Assembly (NCBI GenBank): GCA_009929775.1
Contig: RZZS01000013.1
Span: 1 to 47,059, forward strand
Length of the DNA: 47,059 bases
Source: Alphaproteobacteria bacterium
GTDB lineage: Bacteria; Pseudomonadota; Alphaproteobacteria; Micavibrionales; Micavibrionaceae
Direction of reading: 5' to 3'
Notes under the pieces: model-generated
What the model was told of the DNA's origin: nothing
Database searches by the model: none
The model's input: the letters and a program-made list of their open reading frames with translations, nothing else
In this document: piece after piece, positions 14,121 through 25,957 of the stretch
How the letters are laid out: every line of letters starts with the position of its first letter
Numbering within the stretch: the stretch's first letter is position 1
Made by a program: the position numbers and the translations under genes

Positions 14121-16289
14121 CTACCGGCCCCTCGCCCGCTCCACGCTCGCGATTTGCGGTGTCGCGCGGAGAGCCGCGATAATGTTGTTCAGATGCTTTG
14201 TGTCGTTTACGTAAATATCGAGCAGCATATCCCAGAAATCGAGGGAACGGCTTGTGATTTTAAGATTCGTGATATTGCCACCGTTCTTGCCGATAACGGT
14301 CGAGATCGTGCCAAGCGCCCCCGGCTGGTTCGAGATCGTCACATTGATCCGGCCTACATGAGCCTCGGGCGCGTCCGGACCCTCGCCCCATGAAACGTCT
14401 AGCCAGCGCTCGGGCGTATCCGCGAACGTCTCAAGCGTTTCGCAATCGATCGTGTGAATGGTCACGCCTTTGCCAGTTGTCACGATCCCGACGATCCGGT
14501 CGCCCGGAAGCGGGTGGCAGCAGCGCGCGAAATGAACTGCCATGCCGGGGATGAGACCACGGATCGGCATCGGCGCGTCTTTGCCCATCACCTGTTTCTT
14601 GTTGACCTGAATTTCGCCCGGTACGATGTCCTTTTTCTGAGCCTGCGCCTGATGGCCGGGGAAGATTGCCTTGAACACATCCCGCGCCACGAGGTGCCCG
14701 GAGCCGATATTGGCAAAGATATCATCGACTTCTGATGCCTTGTAGTGGCTCAAAACTCCTGCGACGGCCTTGTCGGTGAAGTCGTACCCCTCATGACGAA
14801 AGACCTTCTGGAGCATCGCGCGACCGAGCGAAACATATTCGCCGCGCTGTTGCGTACGGATGAAGCGGCGGATGTGCGAGCGCGCCTTGCCTGTGACGAC
14901 AAAACGCTCCCATGTCGGCGACGGATTCTGCGTCTTGGCCGTGATGATTTCGACCTGGTCGCCGTTGTTGAGCCGCGTGTTGAGAGGCGCAATGCGACCG
15001 TTGATCTTGGCCCCGACGCACTTGTCGCCGATGTCCGAGTGGATGCCGTAGGCGAAGTCGATGGGCGTCGCGCCATTAGGCAACTCGATCAGGTCACCGC
15101 GCGGCGTGAAGACGAAAACCTGGTCCTGAAACAGCTCGAGCTTTGTGTTCTCGAGAAAGTCCTCGGCCTTCTGCTCGTGTTCGAGAATATCCAGAAGCTC
15201 GCGCATCCATCGATACTCGCGAATGTTCTTGAGAACGGTCTGCTCCTCGCCCTGCTTGTACGCCCAGTGGGCGGCAACCCCGAGGTCAGCTTCCTCATGC
15301 ATCTGACGAGTGCGGATCTGTACCTCGATGCGCTGGCTTTCCGGACCGATCACCGAGGTGTGGATCGAACGGTACCCGTTCGGTTTGGGTGTCGAAATGA
15401 AATCCTTGAATCGACCGGGCACTGTCGGATAGTGACTGTGGATCAGACCGAGCACGTGATAACACTCGGCGATGTCCGCGACAACGATCCGGAAGGCCAT
15501 GATGTCGGAGAGCTGTTCGAAGGCGACGTTCTTGCGTTGCATCTTCTTCCAGATCGAGTAGCGGGTTTTCTCGCGGCCCGTCACCTGCGCCCTGATGCCC
15601 GCCGTATCGAGGTGCTTTTCAAGCTCGCGGATGATCTTGTTGACCATGTCCGTGCCTTCCTTGCGCAGGAAAGACAGACGGTTGGTTATGCTCTCTCGCG
15701 CCTCGGGATTCATGAAGGCGAAGGCAAGGTCTTCGAGTTCCTCCTTGATCTTGTGGATGCCGATACGCTCGGCGAGCGGCGCGTAAATTTCGATCGTTTC
15801 TCGCGCGATGCGATGGCGCTTTTCAGGCTTGGCAATGTGGTGAAGGGTCCGCATGTTATGCAGCCTGTCCGCAAGCTTGATAAGCAGAACCCGAATGTCG
15901 CGCGACATTGCAAGGACAAGCTTGCGGAAATTCTCGGCCTGTTTGCCCTCGACAGTCTGGACCTGGATTTTGGCGAGCTTGCTCAGACCGTCGACGAGAT
16001 CGGCCACCTCGGACCCGAACTCCCGTTTAAGATCCTCGAGCGTGGCCGCGGTGTCCTCAACCGTATCATGCAGAATGGCTGTGACGATCGTAGCTGTGTC
16101 GAGGTGCATTTCAGCGAGAATGTCCGCAACTTCAAGCGGATGAAGATAATACGGGTCGCCAGAAGCACGCGTCTGCCCCTCGTGCATTTTCTTTGCGAAT
16201 TCGTAGGCCTTGAGCACAACGTCCCGGTCGAGATCGGGGTTGTGCGCAAACAGATTCTCAAAGACCTGTTCCTGGCCCGTGCCGTGCAA
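14121..16289 (-). CDS. rsh: Bifunctional (p)ppGpp synthetase/hydrolase
   Basis: Long RelA/SpoT homologue of 722 residues that makes and degrades the stringent-response alarmone. HD hydrolase domain: His50, LHDTVEDT (73-80) and ADRLHNMRTL (140-149). Synthetase domain: GREKTRYSIWKKM (238-250), DIMAFRIVV, the G-loop KPNGYRSIH (302-310) and IEVQIRT (321-327). A TGS domain (about 387-450) and a C-terminal ACT domain follow. Both catalytic halves look intact. The start is TTG 16289 with AGAAAGG upstream; I see no in-frame ATG before it. It lies downstream of rpoZ, as in many alphaproteobacteria, but an intrinsic terminator separates the two. Confidence 0.95.
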   Translation of the reverse strand: MHGTGQEQVFENLFAHNPDLDRDVVLKAYEFAKKMHEGQTRASGDPYYLHPLEVADILAEMHLDTATIVTAILHDTVEDTAATLEDLKREFGSEVADLVDGLSKLAKIQVQTVEGKQAENFRKLVLAMSRDIRVLLIKLADRLHNMRTLHHIAKPEKRHRIARETIEIYAPLAERIGIHKIKEELEDLAFAFMNPEARESITNRLSFLRKEGTDMVNKIIRELEKHLDTAGIRAQVTGREKTRYSIWKKMQRKNVAFEQLSDIMAFRIVVADIAECYHVLGLIHSHYPTVPGRFKDFISTPKPNGYRSIHTSVIGPESQRIEVQIRTRQMHEEADLGVAAHWAYKQGEEQTVLKNIREYRWMRELLDILEHEQKAEDFLENTKLELFQDQVFVFTPRGDLIELPNGATPIDFAYGIHSDIGDKCVGAKINGRIAPLNTRLNNGDQVEIITAKTQNPSPTWERFVVTGKARSHIRRFIRTQQRGEYVSLGRAMLQKVFRHEGYDFTDKAVAGVLSHYKASEVDDIFANIGSGHLVARDVFKAIFPGHQAQAQKKDIVPGEIQVNKKQVMGKDAPMPIRGLIPGMAVHFARCCHPLPGDRIVGIVTTGKGVTIHTIDCETLETFADTPERWLDVSWGEGPDAPEAHVGRINVTISNQPGALGTISTVIGKNGGNITNLKITSRSLDFWDMLLDIYVNDTKHLNNIIAALRATPQIASVERARGR

Positions 16290-22185: not shown

Positions 22186-22917
22186 GTGGATATCCCTTGC
22201 CCCTGCCCTACCCTATTTCAGATGAAAAATAAAACGCGCCGGATTTTGATTCTTGCGCCTGGGGCGGCGGTGCTGGTCGGCATCGCGCTGGCCGTCGGTT
22301 TTGCGCTAGACTGGGAAAGCCCGGTGAGCCGGGACGAACTGCGGGCGTTTCTCGAACGGGCGCACGGCACGCCGTGGGCGTTTCCGCTGGTGCTCGCCGT
22401 GTTCGTCGTTGGAGGTTTCGTCATGTTCCCGGTTACGGTCATGAACCTCGTCTCGGCGATGGTGTTCGGGCCGCTCTGGGGCGTACTCTATGCGCTGGCC
22501 GGAGCGATGCTCTCGGCAGCGATCATGTTCCGGGTCGGCGAACTTCTGGGCAGGAGGCATTTGCGGAAACTCATGGGTCGGCGGCTCCGGAAGATTGACG
22601 AAGCGCTCAGGAATTCCGGCATCGCAGGGATGACGGCGATCCGTTTCGTGCCGATCGCGCCCTACGGGGCGATGAACCTCGCGGCGGGCGTATCGTCGAT
22701 TACGTTTACGGTTTTCATCTTCGGAACGCTGTTCTCGCTGATCCCCGGCGCGGTCGCGCGCGGGTTCGTTGGCGACTCGCTGACGCAGATCGTTCTCGAA
22801 CCGACGCCGGAATCGGCCGCCTATCTCGCGGCCGGTCTGGCCGGGTGGGGCTTCGTGATTGTCGCCACGCACCACCTGGCCCGAAAGCTCGGGAAGCGGG
22901 AAGAAGCGCGAACGTAA
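22186..22917 (+). CDS. VTT/TVP38-TMEM64 family membrane protein
   Basis: Integral membrane protein of about 243 residues of the DedA/VTT superfamily, members of which act in lipid scrambling or undecaprenyl-phosphate recycling. The core VTT region is visible: FVMFPVTVMNLVSAMVFGPL, then AMLSAAIMFRVGELLGRR, and the second re-entrant motif RFVPIAPYGAMNLAAGVSSI. Five or six hydrophobic segments span it. I take GTG 22186 because AAGGGAGG lies 7 bases upstream; ATG 22222 is the alternative. Its 3' end meets the opposing Cys/His-rich gene after 11 bp. Confidence 0.85.
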   Translation: MDIPCPCPTLFQMKNKTRRILILAPGAAVLVGIALAVGFALDWESPVSRDELRAFLERAHGTPWAFPLVLAVFVVGGFVMFPVTVMNLVSAMVFGPLWGVLYALAGAMLSAAIMFRVGELLGRRHLRKLMGRRLRKIDEALRNSGIAGMTAIRFVPIAPYGAMNLAAGVSSITFTVFIFGTLFSLIPGAVARGFVGDSLTQIVLEPTPESAAYLAAGLAGWGFVIVATHHLARKLGKREEART

Positions 22918-22928
22918 GGCTTCGCTTA

Positions 22929-23174
22929 TTAATGCTTCCCGCCGCAGCAACCGCCGCCGCCGGGAGTCGTTACGTCGTCGTCCTCGTCGGCGTGGGAATG
23001 CTGGTGTCCATGACCGCCGCAGCAGCCACCATGGGAAACTCCCGGCCCCGCACCGTGCTTGTCTTCGTGCGCGCGCCCTTCGCCGCCGCAGCACCCTTCT
23101 TTCTTCTCTTCCTTCTTCTGACCGCCGCAGCAGCCGGTGTCTTCCGTCTTTGAACGCTTGAAAAGGCCGAACAT
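22929..23174 (-). CDS. Cys/His-rich small protein with four CCGG motifs
   Basis: An 81-residue protein with the tetrapeptide CCGG four times (15-18, 28-31, 51-54, 76-79) and eight His, four of them in HGHQHSH right after the third motif. The linkers are Lys/Glu or Asp/Gly rich and probably flexible. It has no signal peptide, so it is cytoplasmic. Such density of vicinal Cys and His suggests metal binding, storage or delivery (Cu, Zn or Ni), but I cannot name a family. A strong AAGGAGA site precedes ATG 23174, and the gene is divergent from guaA. Confidence 0.75.
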
Positions 23175-23333
23175 CTGGTTGTCTCCTTCCTGATAAACCG
23201 TACCGATTGTACCCGTTTTTCAAGCCGCTTGCACTTCTATTTGCTGTCCCTCCCGCCGCGTTTGCCTTTGCGCGCAAAAACTTGTATGAGAAAAATCACT
23301 CCCGGTAACCCCTTTTGCGCGAACAGGAAGCCC

Positions 23334-24923
23334 ATGACCGCCGACAGCCAGACCTCCCCCGAAATCACGCAGCATCACGACCGCATTCTCATTCTCGATT
23401 TCGGCTCGCAGGTCACGCAGCTGATCGCTCGCCGGGTCCGCGAAAGCGGCGTGTATTGCGAGATCTGGCCGTTCAATCACGCGGACGAGGCTCGCATCCG
23501 GTCCTTCGCGCCCAAGGGCGTCATTCTTTCGGGCGGGCCGTGCAGCGTCACCGAAGACGGGTCTCCCCGCGCGCCGGAGGGGCTGTTCGAGATGAACCTG
23601 CCGCTGCTCGGCATCTGTTACGGCCAGCAGACGATGGTCGAACAACTCGGCGGCAGGGTCGCAGGCAGCGACCACCGCGAGTTCGGGCGGGCTTACGTGG
23701 ACGTGCTCGACGAAACGCCGATCACCAAAGGGCTTTGGGAGAAAGGCGCGCACGAACAGGTCTGGATGAGCCACGGCGACCGCGTCGAGCACCTCCCCGA
23801 AGGTTTCCGCATCATCGGCAGGAGCGAGGGCGCGCCCTTCGCATTCGTCGCCGACGAGGCGCGCGGGTTTTACGGTGTGCAGTTCCACCCGGAAGTCGTT
23901 CACACGCCCCACGGCGCGCAGCTTCTCAGGAACTTCACGCACGGGGTCTGCGGCTGTGCGGGCGACTGGACCATGGCCGCCTTCAAGGCCGAAGCGATTG
24001 AGAAAATCCGCGCGCAGGTCGGCGGCGCAAAGGTTATTTGCGGCCTTTCGGGCGGCGTGGATTCGAGCGTCACGGCCGTGCTCCTGCACGAGGCGATCGG
24101 CGATCAACTGACCTGTATCTATGTCGATACCGGCATGATGCGCGCGGGCGAGTCGGAACAGGTCGTCGCGCTCTTCAAAAACCATTACAACATCCCGCTC
24201 ATTCACGAGGATGCGAGCGCGCTGTTCCTCGGCAAGCTCGAGGGCGTGAGCGACCCTGAAAAGAAGCGCAAAATCATCGGCGGCACGTTCATCGACGTGT
24301 TCGATGACTGCGCGAAGCGGATCGGCGGCGCGGATTTCCTCGCGCAAGGCACGCTCTATCCGGACGTGATCGAGAGCGTCAGCTTTACCGGCGGCCCCTC
24401 TGTCACAATCAAAAGCCACCACAATGTCGGCGGCCTGCCAGAGCGCATGAACATGAAGCTCGTGGAACCCTTGCGCGAGCTGTTCAAGGACGAGGTGCGC
24501 GCCCTTGGCATCGAGCTCGGCATGCACGAGGATTTCGTCAAGCGCCACCCCTTCCCGGGCCCGGGCCTCGCCATCCGCATCCCCGGCGATATCACCGGCG
24601 AAAAGCTCGACATCCTGCGCAAGGCCGACAAAATCTTTATCGAGGAAATCCGCAGCGCGGGGCTGTACGACGCGATCTGGCAGGCCTTTGCCGTTTTATT
24701 GCCGGTGAAGACCGTAGGCGTGATGGGCGACTCGCGTTCCTATGATTACGTCTGCGCCCTGCGGGCGGTCACAAGCACCGACGGCATGACCGCCGACTAC
24801 TACCATTTCGACCACGAGTTTTTAGGCCGCGTCGCGAATAGAATCGTGAATGAAGTGCGGGGGATAAACCGCGTGGTTTACGACATCACGAGTAAACCGC
24901 CGGGGACGATTGAGTGGGAGTGA
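23334..24923 (+). CDS. guaA: GMP synthase (glutamine-hydrolysing)
   Basis: Converts XMP to GMP using ATP and glutamine, the last step of guanine nucleotide synthesis. The protein has 529 residues. The glutamine amidotransferase domain has Cys95 in LLGICYGQQ and the His-Glu pair in VQFHPEV. The ATP-pyrophosphatase domain has [10 protein letters not shown]. The C-terminal dimerisation region includes [12 protein letters not shown] and ends TIEWE. The start is ATG 23334, with AGGAAG before it. An accessory alarmone synthetase gene begins 5 bp after its stop. Confidence 0.97.
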
Positions 24924-24928
24924 GGGGG

Positions 24929-25957
24929 ATGTCACGCGACATTTATCCGCAGTATTCCAATACACGGATTAACAATGCGGGAAAAAAGGTTCGAGACGGC
25001 GTGGAATGTCTGGACGACCTTGTCATTATCGAAAATTGGAGAGCTTCGCATAATCACGTTTTGAACACATGGCAGGCTAGCTTAAGGAATCGCATCAGAA
25101 GCAAAGACGTCGTCTTCGCTCAGCGTCTTAAACGACGAATAACTATTTTCGATAAATTGCGAAGAGAGCCCACGATGGCCCTTTCGAACATGCATGATGT
25201 TGCGGGTTGTCGTTTAATATTTCCTAACATTCAGAAGCTAGAGGATTTTCGTAGGAATATACACGAGAAAAATCGATTTAAGCATAAGCTCTATAGAGAC
25301 GGTGACGACCCCTACAACTATATCCTGAACCCTAGAGCAAGCGGATATCGAAGCATTCACGATGTCTATATCTACAAATCTCAGCATAAAGGGGGGAAAC
25401 CATGGGACGGCTTGAAAGTTGAGATTCAGTACCGGACGAGCAAGCAACACTCTTGGGCAACCGCGGTCGAAATAGCCGGGGCGCTAACAGGAAATCATTC
25501 TAAATTTGGACAAGGGAGCGAGGAGCAAAAAGAATTTTTTCGCTTGTCGAGCGAACTCATCGCAAGGGCACATGAAGGACTACACTCATGCTACCCTGAT
25601 TTGTCAAACGCGAATTTGATTAGCGACCTAAAAGAACTGGATGGGCAGTTACGCTTACTTAGGTACCTTGAAACATTGCAAATTATTTCAGTAAAGGTAC
25701 CGAAGAAGCGGAAGGCGCTTATACTGATGTCTCGCCAGCAGGAAGGGAAGTTCAAAATCACAATTCGAAGCTTTGACTCCATGCCGCAAGCTACAAGGGT
25801 CTACTTCGAACTCGAGAAGACTATCTTAGAATCCGATGATCTTGTTCTTGTCCGATCAGATACGAACGAGGGCATCAAAAATGCTTTTAAGAATTATTTT
25901 TCCGATGCGGGTGATTTTGTAAGATTGGTCCGAAGCGGAGTTGAAATTCTTAGTTAG
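24929..25957 (+). CDS. Synthetase-only RelA/SpoT domain protein
   Basis: A 342-residue protein with a lone (p)ppGpp-synthetase-type nucleotidyltransferase domain (about 35-185) and no HD hydrolase, TGS or ACT domain. Conserved positions are present: a basic helix KRRITIFDKLRRE, Asp90 (MHDVAGCRL), the G-loop GYRSIH with Tyr140 and His144, and Glu165 in VEIQYRT, so it looks active. The C-terminal half (190-342) is helical at first, then an unrecognised domain. The gene is clearly richer in A/T than guaA and mscS around it, a sign of transfer. It could be a small alarmone synthetase or a toxic SAS of a defence system; no separate antitoxin gene is seen. GAGGGGG precedes ATG 24929. Confidence 0.85.
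   Translation: MSRDIYPQYSNTRINNAGKKVRDGVECLDDLVIIENWRASHNHVLNTWQASLRNRIRSKDVVFAQRLKRRITIFDKLRREPTMALSNMHDVAGCRLIFPNIQKLEDFRRNIHEKNRFKHKLYRDGDDPYNYILNPRASGYRSIHDVYIYKSQHKGGKPWDGLKVEIQYRTSKQHSWATAVEIAGALTGNHSKFGQGSEEQKEFFRLSSELIARAHEGLHSCYPDLSNANLISDLKELDGQLRLLRYLETLQIISVKVPKKRKALILMSRQQEGKFKITIRSFDSMPQATRVYFELEKTILESDDLVLVRSDTNEGIKNAFKNYFSDAGDFVRLVRSGVEILS

Follow-up and report, generated by a model that had tools for sequence, protein, structure and literature searches.

The window, the whole stretch of 47,059 nucleotides that we analyzed, contains on its minus strand an open reading frame (ORF) at positions 22929–23174, stop codon included, that encodes an 81-residue protein, P0001. The assignment of this coding sequence draws on the ORF reading of the window, on relatives in other genomes, and on the codon differences between two of those relatives (G024 and G083). 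Translation bore out what an earlier note on this DNA had reported, four CCGG units and eight histidines within 81 residues. The units lie at residues 15–18 (23121–23132), 28–31 (23082–23093), 51–54 (23013–23024), and 76–79 (22938–22949), all on the minus strand, and together hold all eight cysteines of the protein. The third unit is followed by HGHQHSH and the fourth by a C-terminal KH. At its other end, P0001 begins with a hydrophobic-basic segment, MFGLFKRSK (23148–23174, minus strand), which alignment A1 shows to be of one type with MLEMIKSLIGKG and MFAKIKELLGGG from the relatives that, with P0001, make up group I. A Shine-Dalgarno-like sequence, AGGAAGGAG, is read on the same strand at 23183–23191, 8 nt 5' of the ATG, in agreement with the strong ribosome-binding site claimed previously.

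The gene arrangement described in the earlier note was also confirmed by ORF positions and domain matches: guaA runs divergently from the P0001 gene, on the plus strand from 23334, and an ORF for a VTT-domain membrane protein, also on the plus strand, converges on it and ends at 22917. The neighbors are guaA, a leuA-like gene, and the VTT gene, with no metal genes beside the P0001 gene, and an RND pump encoded 14 kb away matches multidrug models better than CusA/CzcA models. Separately, positions 24914–25957, just downstream of guaA, encode a 347-residue stand-alone RelA_SpoT-domain protein, whose ORF starts (24914) 10 bases before the guaA ORF ends, and a second, full-length Rel/SpoT protein is encoded at 14121–16289 on the minus strand.

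We compared P0001 with shuffled versions of itself. Among 200,000 shuffles, 190,011 contained no CCGG, 9,869 contained one, 120 contained two, and none contained three or four; of the window's 513 stop-to-stop frames with 50 or more codons, only that of P0001 carries any CCGG. P0001 scored 28.8 bits against a profile built from the other four group I proteins, a score reached by none of 1000 shuffles that kept the CC units as units (best 25.6) and by none of 1000 that fixed the CC units in place and shuffled only the linkers (best 24.4). The relatives in G024 and G083 differ by 22 synonymous and 6 non-synonymous codon differences, with 24 of the 29 base changes falling in third positions, and those in G022 and G077 differ at 4 codons synonymously and at 1 non-synonymously. 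The idea that 22929–23174 holds no protein gene and is a repeat of GC-rich DNA read in a single frame could draw on the alanine runs seen when the opposite strand is translated, and on the many DNA-pattern matches in the order that are other frames or low-complexity sequence, but it is contradicted by the synonymous excess and third-position bias in the relatives, and the Shine-Dalgarno site, the shuffling results, and the shared layout of the relatives in five genomes leave it with almost no probability. We conclude that the P0001 gene is a real protein gene, conserved within the order and under purifying selection.

P0001 has no fitting family in Pfam (best match Galaxin_repeat, E 0.16) or in NCBIfam (best match E 5.6, to the SlyD tail region), matches no solved structure, and belongs to no CCGG mini-protein family that we found described in open-licence PMC papers. 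A search of 58 genomes, its own and relatives, gave one clear relative, in G024 (E 4.9e-8); those in G083, G022, and then G077 were recognized by reading DNA-pattern matches and weak matches. The group I profile matched in 21 genomes, and matches that on reading were not CCGG mini-proteins (for example L044, L047, L050, L053, and L055) were dropped; L040, from G078, has a permuted layout and was for that reason placed in neither group. With the joint profile A3, members were detected in 15 of 142 Micavibrionales genomes, five with group I and ten with the shorter group II proteins described below; for ten of the 15, the protein or a close copy of it was already in the alignment, and the copies of nine of ten genomes score well by construction. 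New to the A3 search and absent from the alignment were those of G060, G084, G111, G116, and G051.

When run against 398 genomes of the phylum, A3 matched only the window's own (E up to 0.001). Three of 385 genomes of the class were listed with the group I profile: the window's own, G366 (E 0.002), and G376 (E 0.007), the latter two lying outside the order and dropped as chance matches, with internal stop codons and no CCGG frame. A DNA pattern of two CCGG units matched 18 of the 142 genomes of the order, many of these matches being the other frames or low-complexity sequence already mentioned. A three-unit pattern gave no group I or group II match in the 385 class genomes, a result that counts for little because its spacing was ill suited and it missed the window's own copy; the one genome positive for it, G247, was set aside, since the match is a permease. 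Named genomes gave 387 pattern matches to the P0001 query, none of them confirmed, and eight loci in a scan with the group II alignment, these from Micavibrio, which are predatory bacteria, or from Alphaproteobacteria MAGs. Plasmids gave no match to P0001 or to a group II protein, and none of 137 pattern matches in viral contigs was confirmed.

Group I comprises the proteins of five genomes: the window's own, G024, G083, G022, and G077. They share a short hydrophobic-basic start, three core CC blocks, and a GGCCGG near the C-terminus that is followed by histidines, and P0001 shows each of the N-terminus, the three core blocks, and the GGCCGG in alignment A1. Its units 2, 3, and 4 are core CC blocks 1, 2, and 3, at which CC is invariant in all ten aligned proteins, and its unit 1 is extra, missing from the four group I relatives. 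That absence leaves the previous suggestion of one metal ion per CCGG-His cluster unsupported, as does the placement of the histidines in P0001, none of which is near the first two CCGG units and most of which follow the third. Group I is the branch richer in histidine, with runs such as HHHHH and HGHHHGHHHQH.

We found no metal genes near the group I loci and no common metalloregulator-like site in the regions upstream of the five genes. In G022 and G077, guaA lies about 3 kb away, at the far end of a 10-kb stretch; it adjoins the window gene, and its presence near the group I gene in these three genomes is a weak sign of vertical descent. The window gene, between the VTT gene and guaA, has no adjacent CopA of the kind that defines group II. 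The only E1-E2 ATPase in the window's genome is of the Ca/P2 type (PEGMPA signature, without CPC), and because neither a P1B ATPase nor an HMA domain was found there, we rejected a CopA/CopZ partnership for P0001. G022, a single-contig genome, has no E1-E2 ATPase and no HMA domain, and G077, from the same genus, has CPC ATPases. Group I thus occurs both with and without a copper pump, so delivery to CopA cannot be its whole role. We also noted in G024 a P-type ATPase (L131) with CPH replacing CPC and a His-rich N-terminus.

Group II proteins, picked up by the group I profile, are shorter, follow the pattern MTHHDHKQGGCCGGDKHHEH...DGCC...GGCCGGGHK, and lack the hydrophobic-basic N-terminus. They were found in 10 genomes at 11 loci, a count that includes G042 twice (the same locus on two contigs). 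A P-type ATPase gene lies downstream at all 11 loci. At five of them (L085–L089) it follows the group II gene directly, at 14–15 bases, and at the other six (L081–L084, L090, and L091) one amino-acid-permease-like gene lies between the two. Every one of the 11 ATPases has a CPC motif, and all seven that were scanned passed the cut-off of TIGR01511, the copper-translocating ATPase model. The search for homologues and neighboring metal genes proposed in the earlier note gave a copper ATPase at each group II locus and no metal gene beside the window gene itself.

The remaining neighbors of group II include a MerR-family regulator near the gene in 9 of 11 loci, DUF2231 (8 loci), RND genes, DUF2933, and ICMT-like genes (6 loci each), and CusF (PF11604) in one locus scanned with Pfam. 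The MerR protein of L089 fell below the cut-offs of the CueR, ZntR, and MerR models, so the regulator alone does not name the metal. In copper-resistant marine Alteromonas, copA clusters are described as containing merR, copA, DUF2933, and isoprenylcysteine methyltransferase genes (available portion of PMC8478169).

To relate the two groups, we scored the proteins of each against the profile of the other. Five group II proteins of A2 scored 18–29 bits against the group I profile, and the numbers of linker shuffles with fixed CC that matched the real scores were 0, 0, 0, 0, and 3 of 300. In the reverse direction, P0001 scored 5.4 bits against the group II profile, a value equaled or exceeded by 0 of 300 linker shuffles and by 6 of 300 shuffles that kept CC, and the G022 protein scored 6.9 bits, equaled or exceeded by 11 and 12 of 300. 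Given this weaker reverse result, groups I and II probably share an origin, although the sequence comparison falls short of proof.

AlphaFold2, run on a ten-row alignment that included P0001, returned a mean pLDDT of 46, a pTM of 0.12, and no secondary structure. P0001 is thus predicted to be disordered, as would be expected for a metal-binding protein without its metal, although a shallow alignment also lowers the confidence of such a model.

CCGG units occur in other settings as well. In G078, two adjoining small minus-strand genes (L096:4706–5193) encode proteins that both begin with MGCC, neither of them with a Pfam match; the first combines two CCGG units with His clusters and carries FFKKLFGKKECCN at the C-terminus, and the second has three further CC pairs. 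The two-CCGG protein carries a P0001-like segment, FFKKLFGK, but at its C-terminus, which suggests that the segment matters as a module at either end. A 577-residue ArsP_1 permease (L109:279–2009) of G247, a genome from a different family within the class, has eight CCGG units in its N-terminal part, most of them in a near-perfect 12-residue repeat, CCGGDEQETQSS. A membrane-anchored protein in G106 (L026), PrsA/SurA-like by eye, has CCGGDKSNSEKSSGCCGGDKKKSCC on its N-terminal cytosolic side, and a protein of about 230 residues in G022 (L018) and G077 (L019), with no assigned role, ends in GGCCGGGAKAASDDESSQGGCCGGGCGCG. The addition of CCGG units onto larger proteins supports the view that CCGG is a repeatedly gained module for binding metals or metalloids.

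Because group II proteins adjoin copper pumps, P0001 is probably a small metal buffer, likely for copper, and Cu(I) is the best candidate metal on the same grounds. The reading that we favor, by a modest degree of belief, is that P0001 is a disordered cytosolic buffer or shuttle for soft metals, with Cu(I) the likeliest and Zn(II) or Ni(II) possible, and that it represents a free-standing branch whose group II counterparts sit at CopA. Reduced CC pairs would bind soft transition-metal ions, with histidines helping, and so prevent harm; the His clusters may add sites or stabilize metal binding, and the charged linkers would hold the chain open. The hydrophobic-basic N-terminus of group I could be a tether to the inner membrane or to a partner. 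Group II probably catches Cu(I) at CopA or passes it on there, in the place usually taken by CopZ, and we infer that the two groups share a function. The small metal-binding protein proposed in the earlier note is in keeping with a conserved, predicted disordered protein that falls in no Pfam or NCBIfam family and has CCGG relatives in copper-efflux clusters at 11 of 11 loci, metal binding itself being the inferred part. A wider scheme, which we put forward tentatively as one possibility, is an order-specific family of disordered CCGG proteins that handles Cu(I) without the HMA fold, serving as a CopZ substitute in CopA operons and as a free-standing buffer where both the P1B exporter and CopZ have been lost, as in the window's genome and G022.

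The rival that survives best is that P0001 is a zinc or nickel store of the kind represented by Hpn or the SlyD tail, group I having taken up the His-rich C-terminal part to buffer Zn(II) or Ni(II). The greater His content and long His runs of group I fit such a store, as do its lack of linkage to CopA and the persistence of a group I gene in G022 with no E1-E2 ATPase or HMA domain at all, and both models have precedents for metal in the available portions of their sources: up to 7 Ni(II) on the SlyD tail (PMC7055735), and nickel sequestration by Hpn, which has -CC- motifs (PMC4671568). The invariant feature of the family, however, is the Cys pairs and not His, and no nickel or zinc gene adjoins any group I locus, so we consider this store unlikely, though it deserves to be kept in view.

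Vicinal Cys pairs can be redox active, and P0001 might instead be a thiol redox protein or general thiol reservoir, in which CC pairs form disulfides to sense or buffer oxidants and any metal is incidental. The lack of metal neighbors at group I loci would suit this idea, which accounts for neither the His clusters nor the linkage of the related group II to CopA. P0001 also has no CXXC motif, and we judge the idea improbable. The P0001 family is a real, unannotated, and lineage-restricted one, most likely of the Cys/His metal-buffer kind, with copper its likeliest metal.

Cytosolic Cu(I) in bacteria is handled mostly by HMA-fold chaperones or folded stores. If the copper reading is right, a disordered and easily evolved CC-pair protein would offer a second, simple means of handling it, with such proteins recurring beside CopA in one order and surviving alone where no P1B pump is found. 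Small ORFs missed by current family models would then have a name, and there would be a small metal-binding scaffold for study. If the metal were zinc or nickel, the family would be a new Hpn-like store.

Compared with known systems, P0001 is closest in make-up to the tail of E. coli SlyD, whose last 50 residues hold two CCGG, 6 Cys, and 15 His and carry CCGGHGHDHGHEHGGEGCCGG, so the earlier claim that no characterized family has this layout is right only in part, since it passes over this tail. The SlyD tail is described as unstructured and metal-binding, binding up to 7 Ni(II), in the available portion of PMC7055735. The likeness is one of make-up only, disorder together with CCGG units and His: P0001 lacks the FKBP_C domain (no PF00254 match at E up to 10) of SlyD, which is a prolyl isomerase of the FKBP type, and the group I profile gave the SlyD tail –15.1 bits, which did not exceed the scores of its shuffles, with no homology detected by this test, so we rejected the idea that P0001 is a detached SlyD tail. 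FKBP_C matches in six genomes searched looked trigger factor-like by length and sequence (by eye, in 4 of 6 frames); for G022 and G077, the plus-strand frames that were read did not correspond to the match. Hpn and Hpn-2, of which Hpn is a Helicobacter nickel-sequestration protein with -CC- motifs (PMC4671568, available portion), resemble P0001 in being small and lineage-restricted; compared by description, Hpn is a His-rich metal store dominated by His runs, whereas the 81 residues of P0001 include eight His and four CCGG units. Bacterial metallothioneins (PF02069) are likewise small and Cys-rich, but P0001 matches no Pfam metallothionein model at E up to 10 and has its Cys in CC pairs only. 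CopZ resembles the family in setting, group II lying beside CopA where a Cu(I) chaperone would be; it has the HMA fold with MXCXXC, whereas P0001 has no PF00403 match, no CXXC, and no confident fold.
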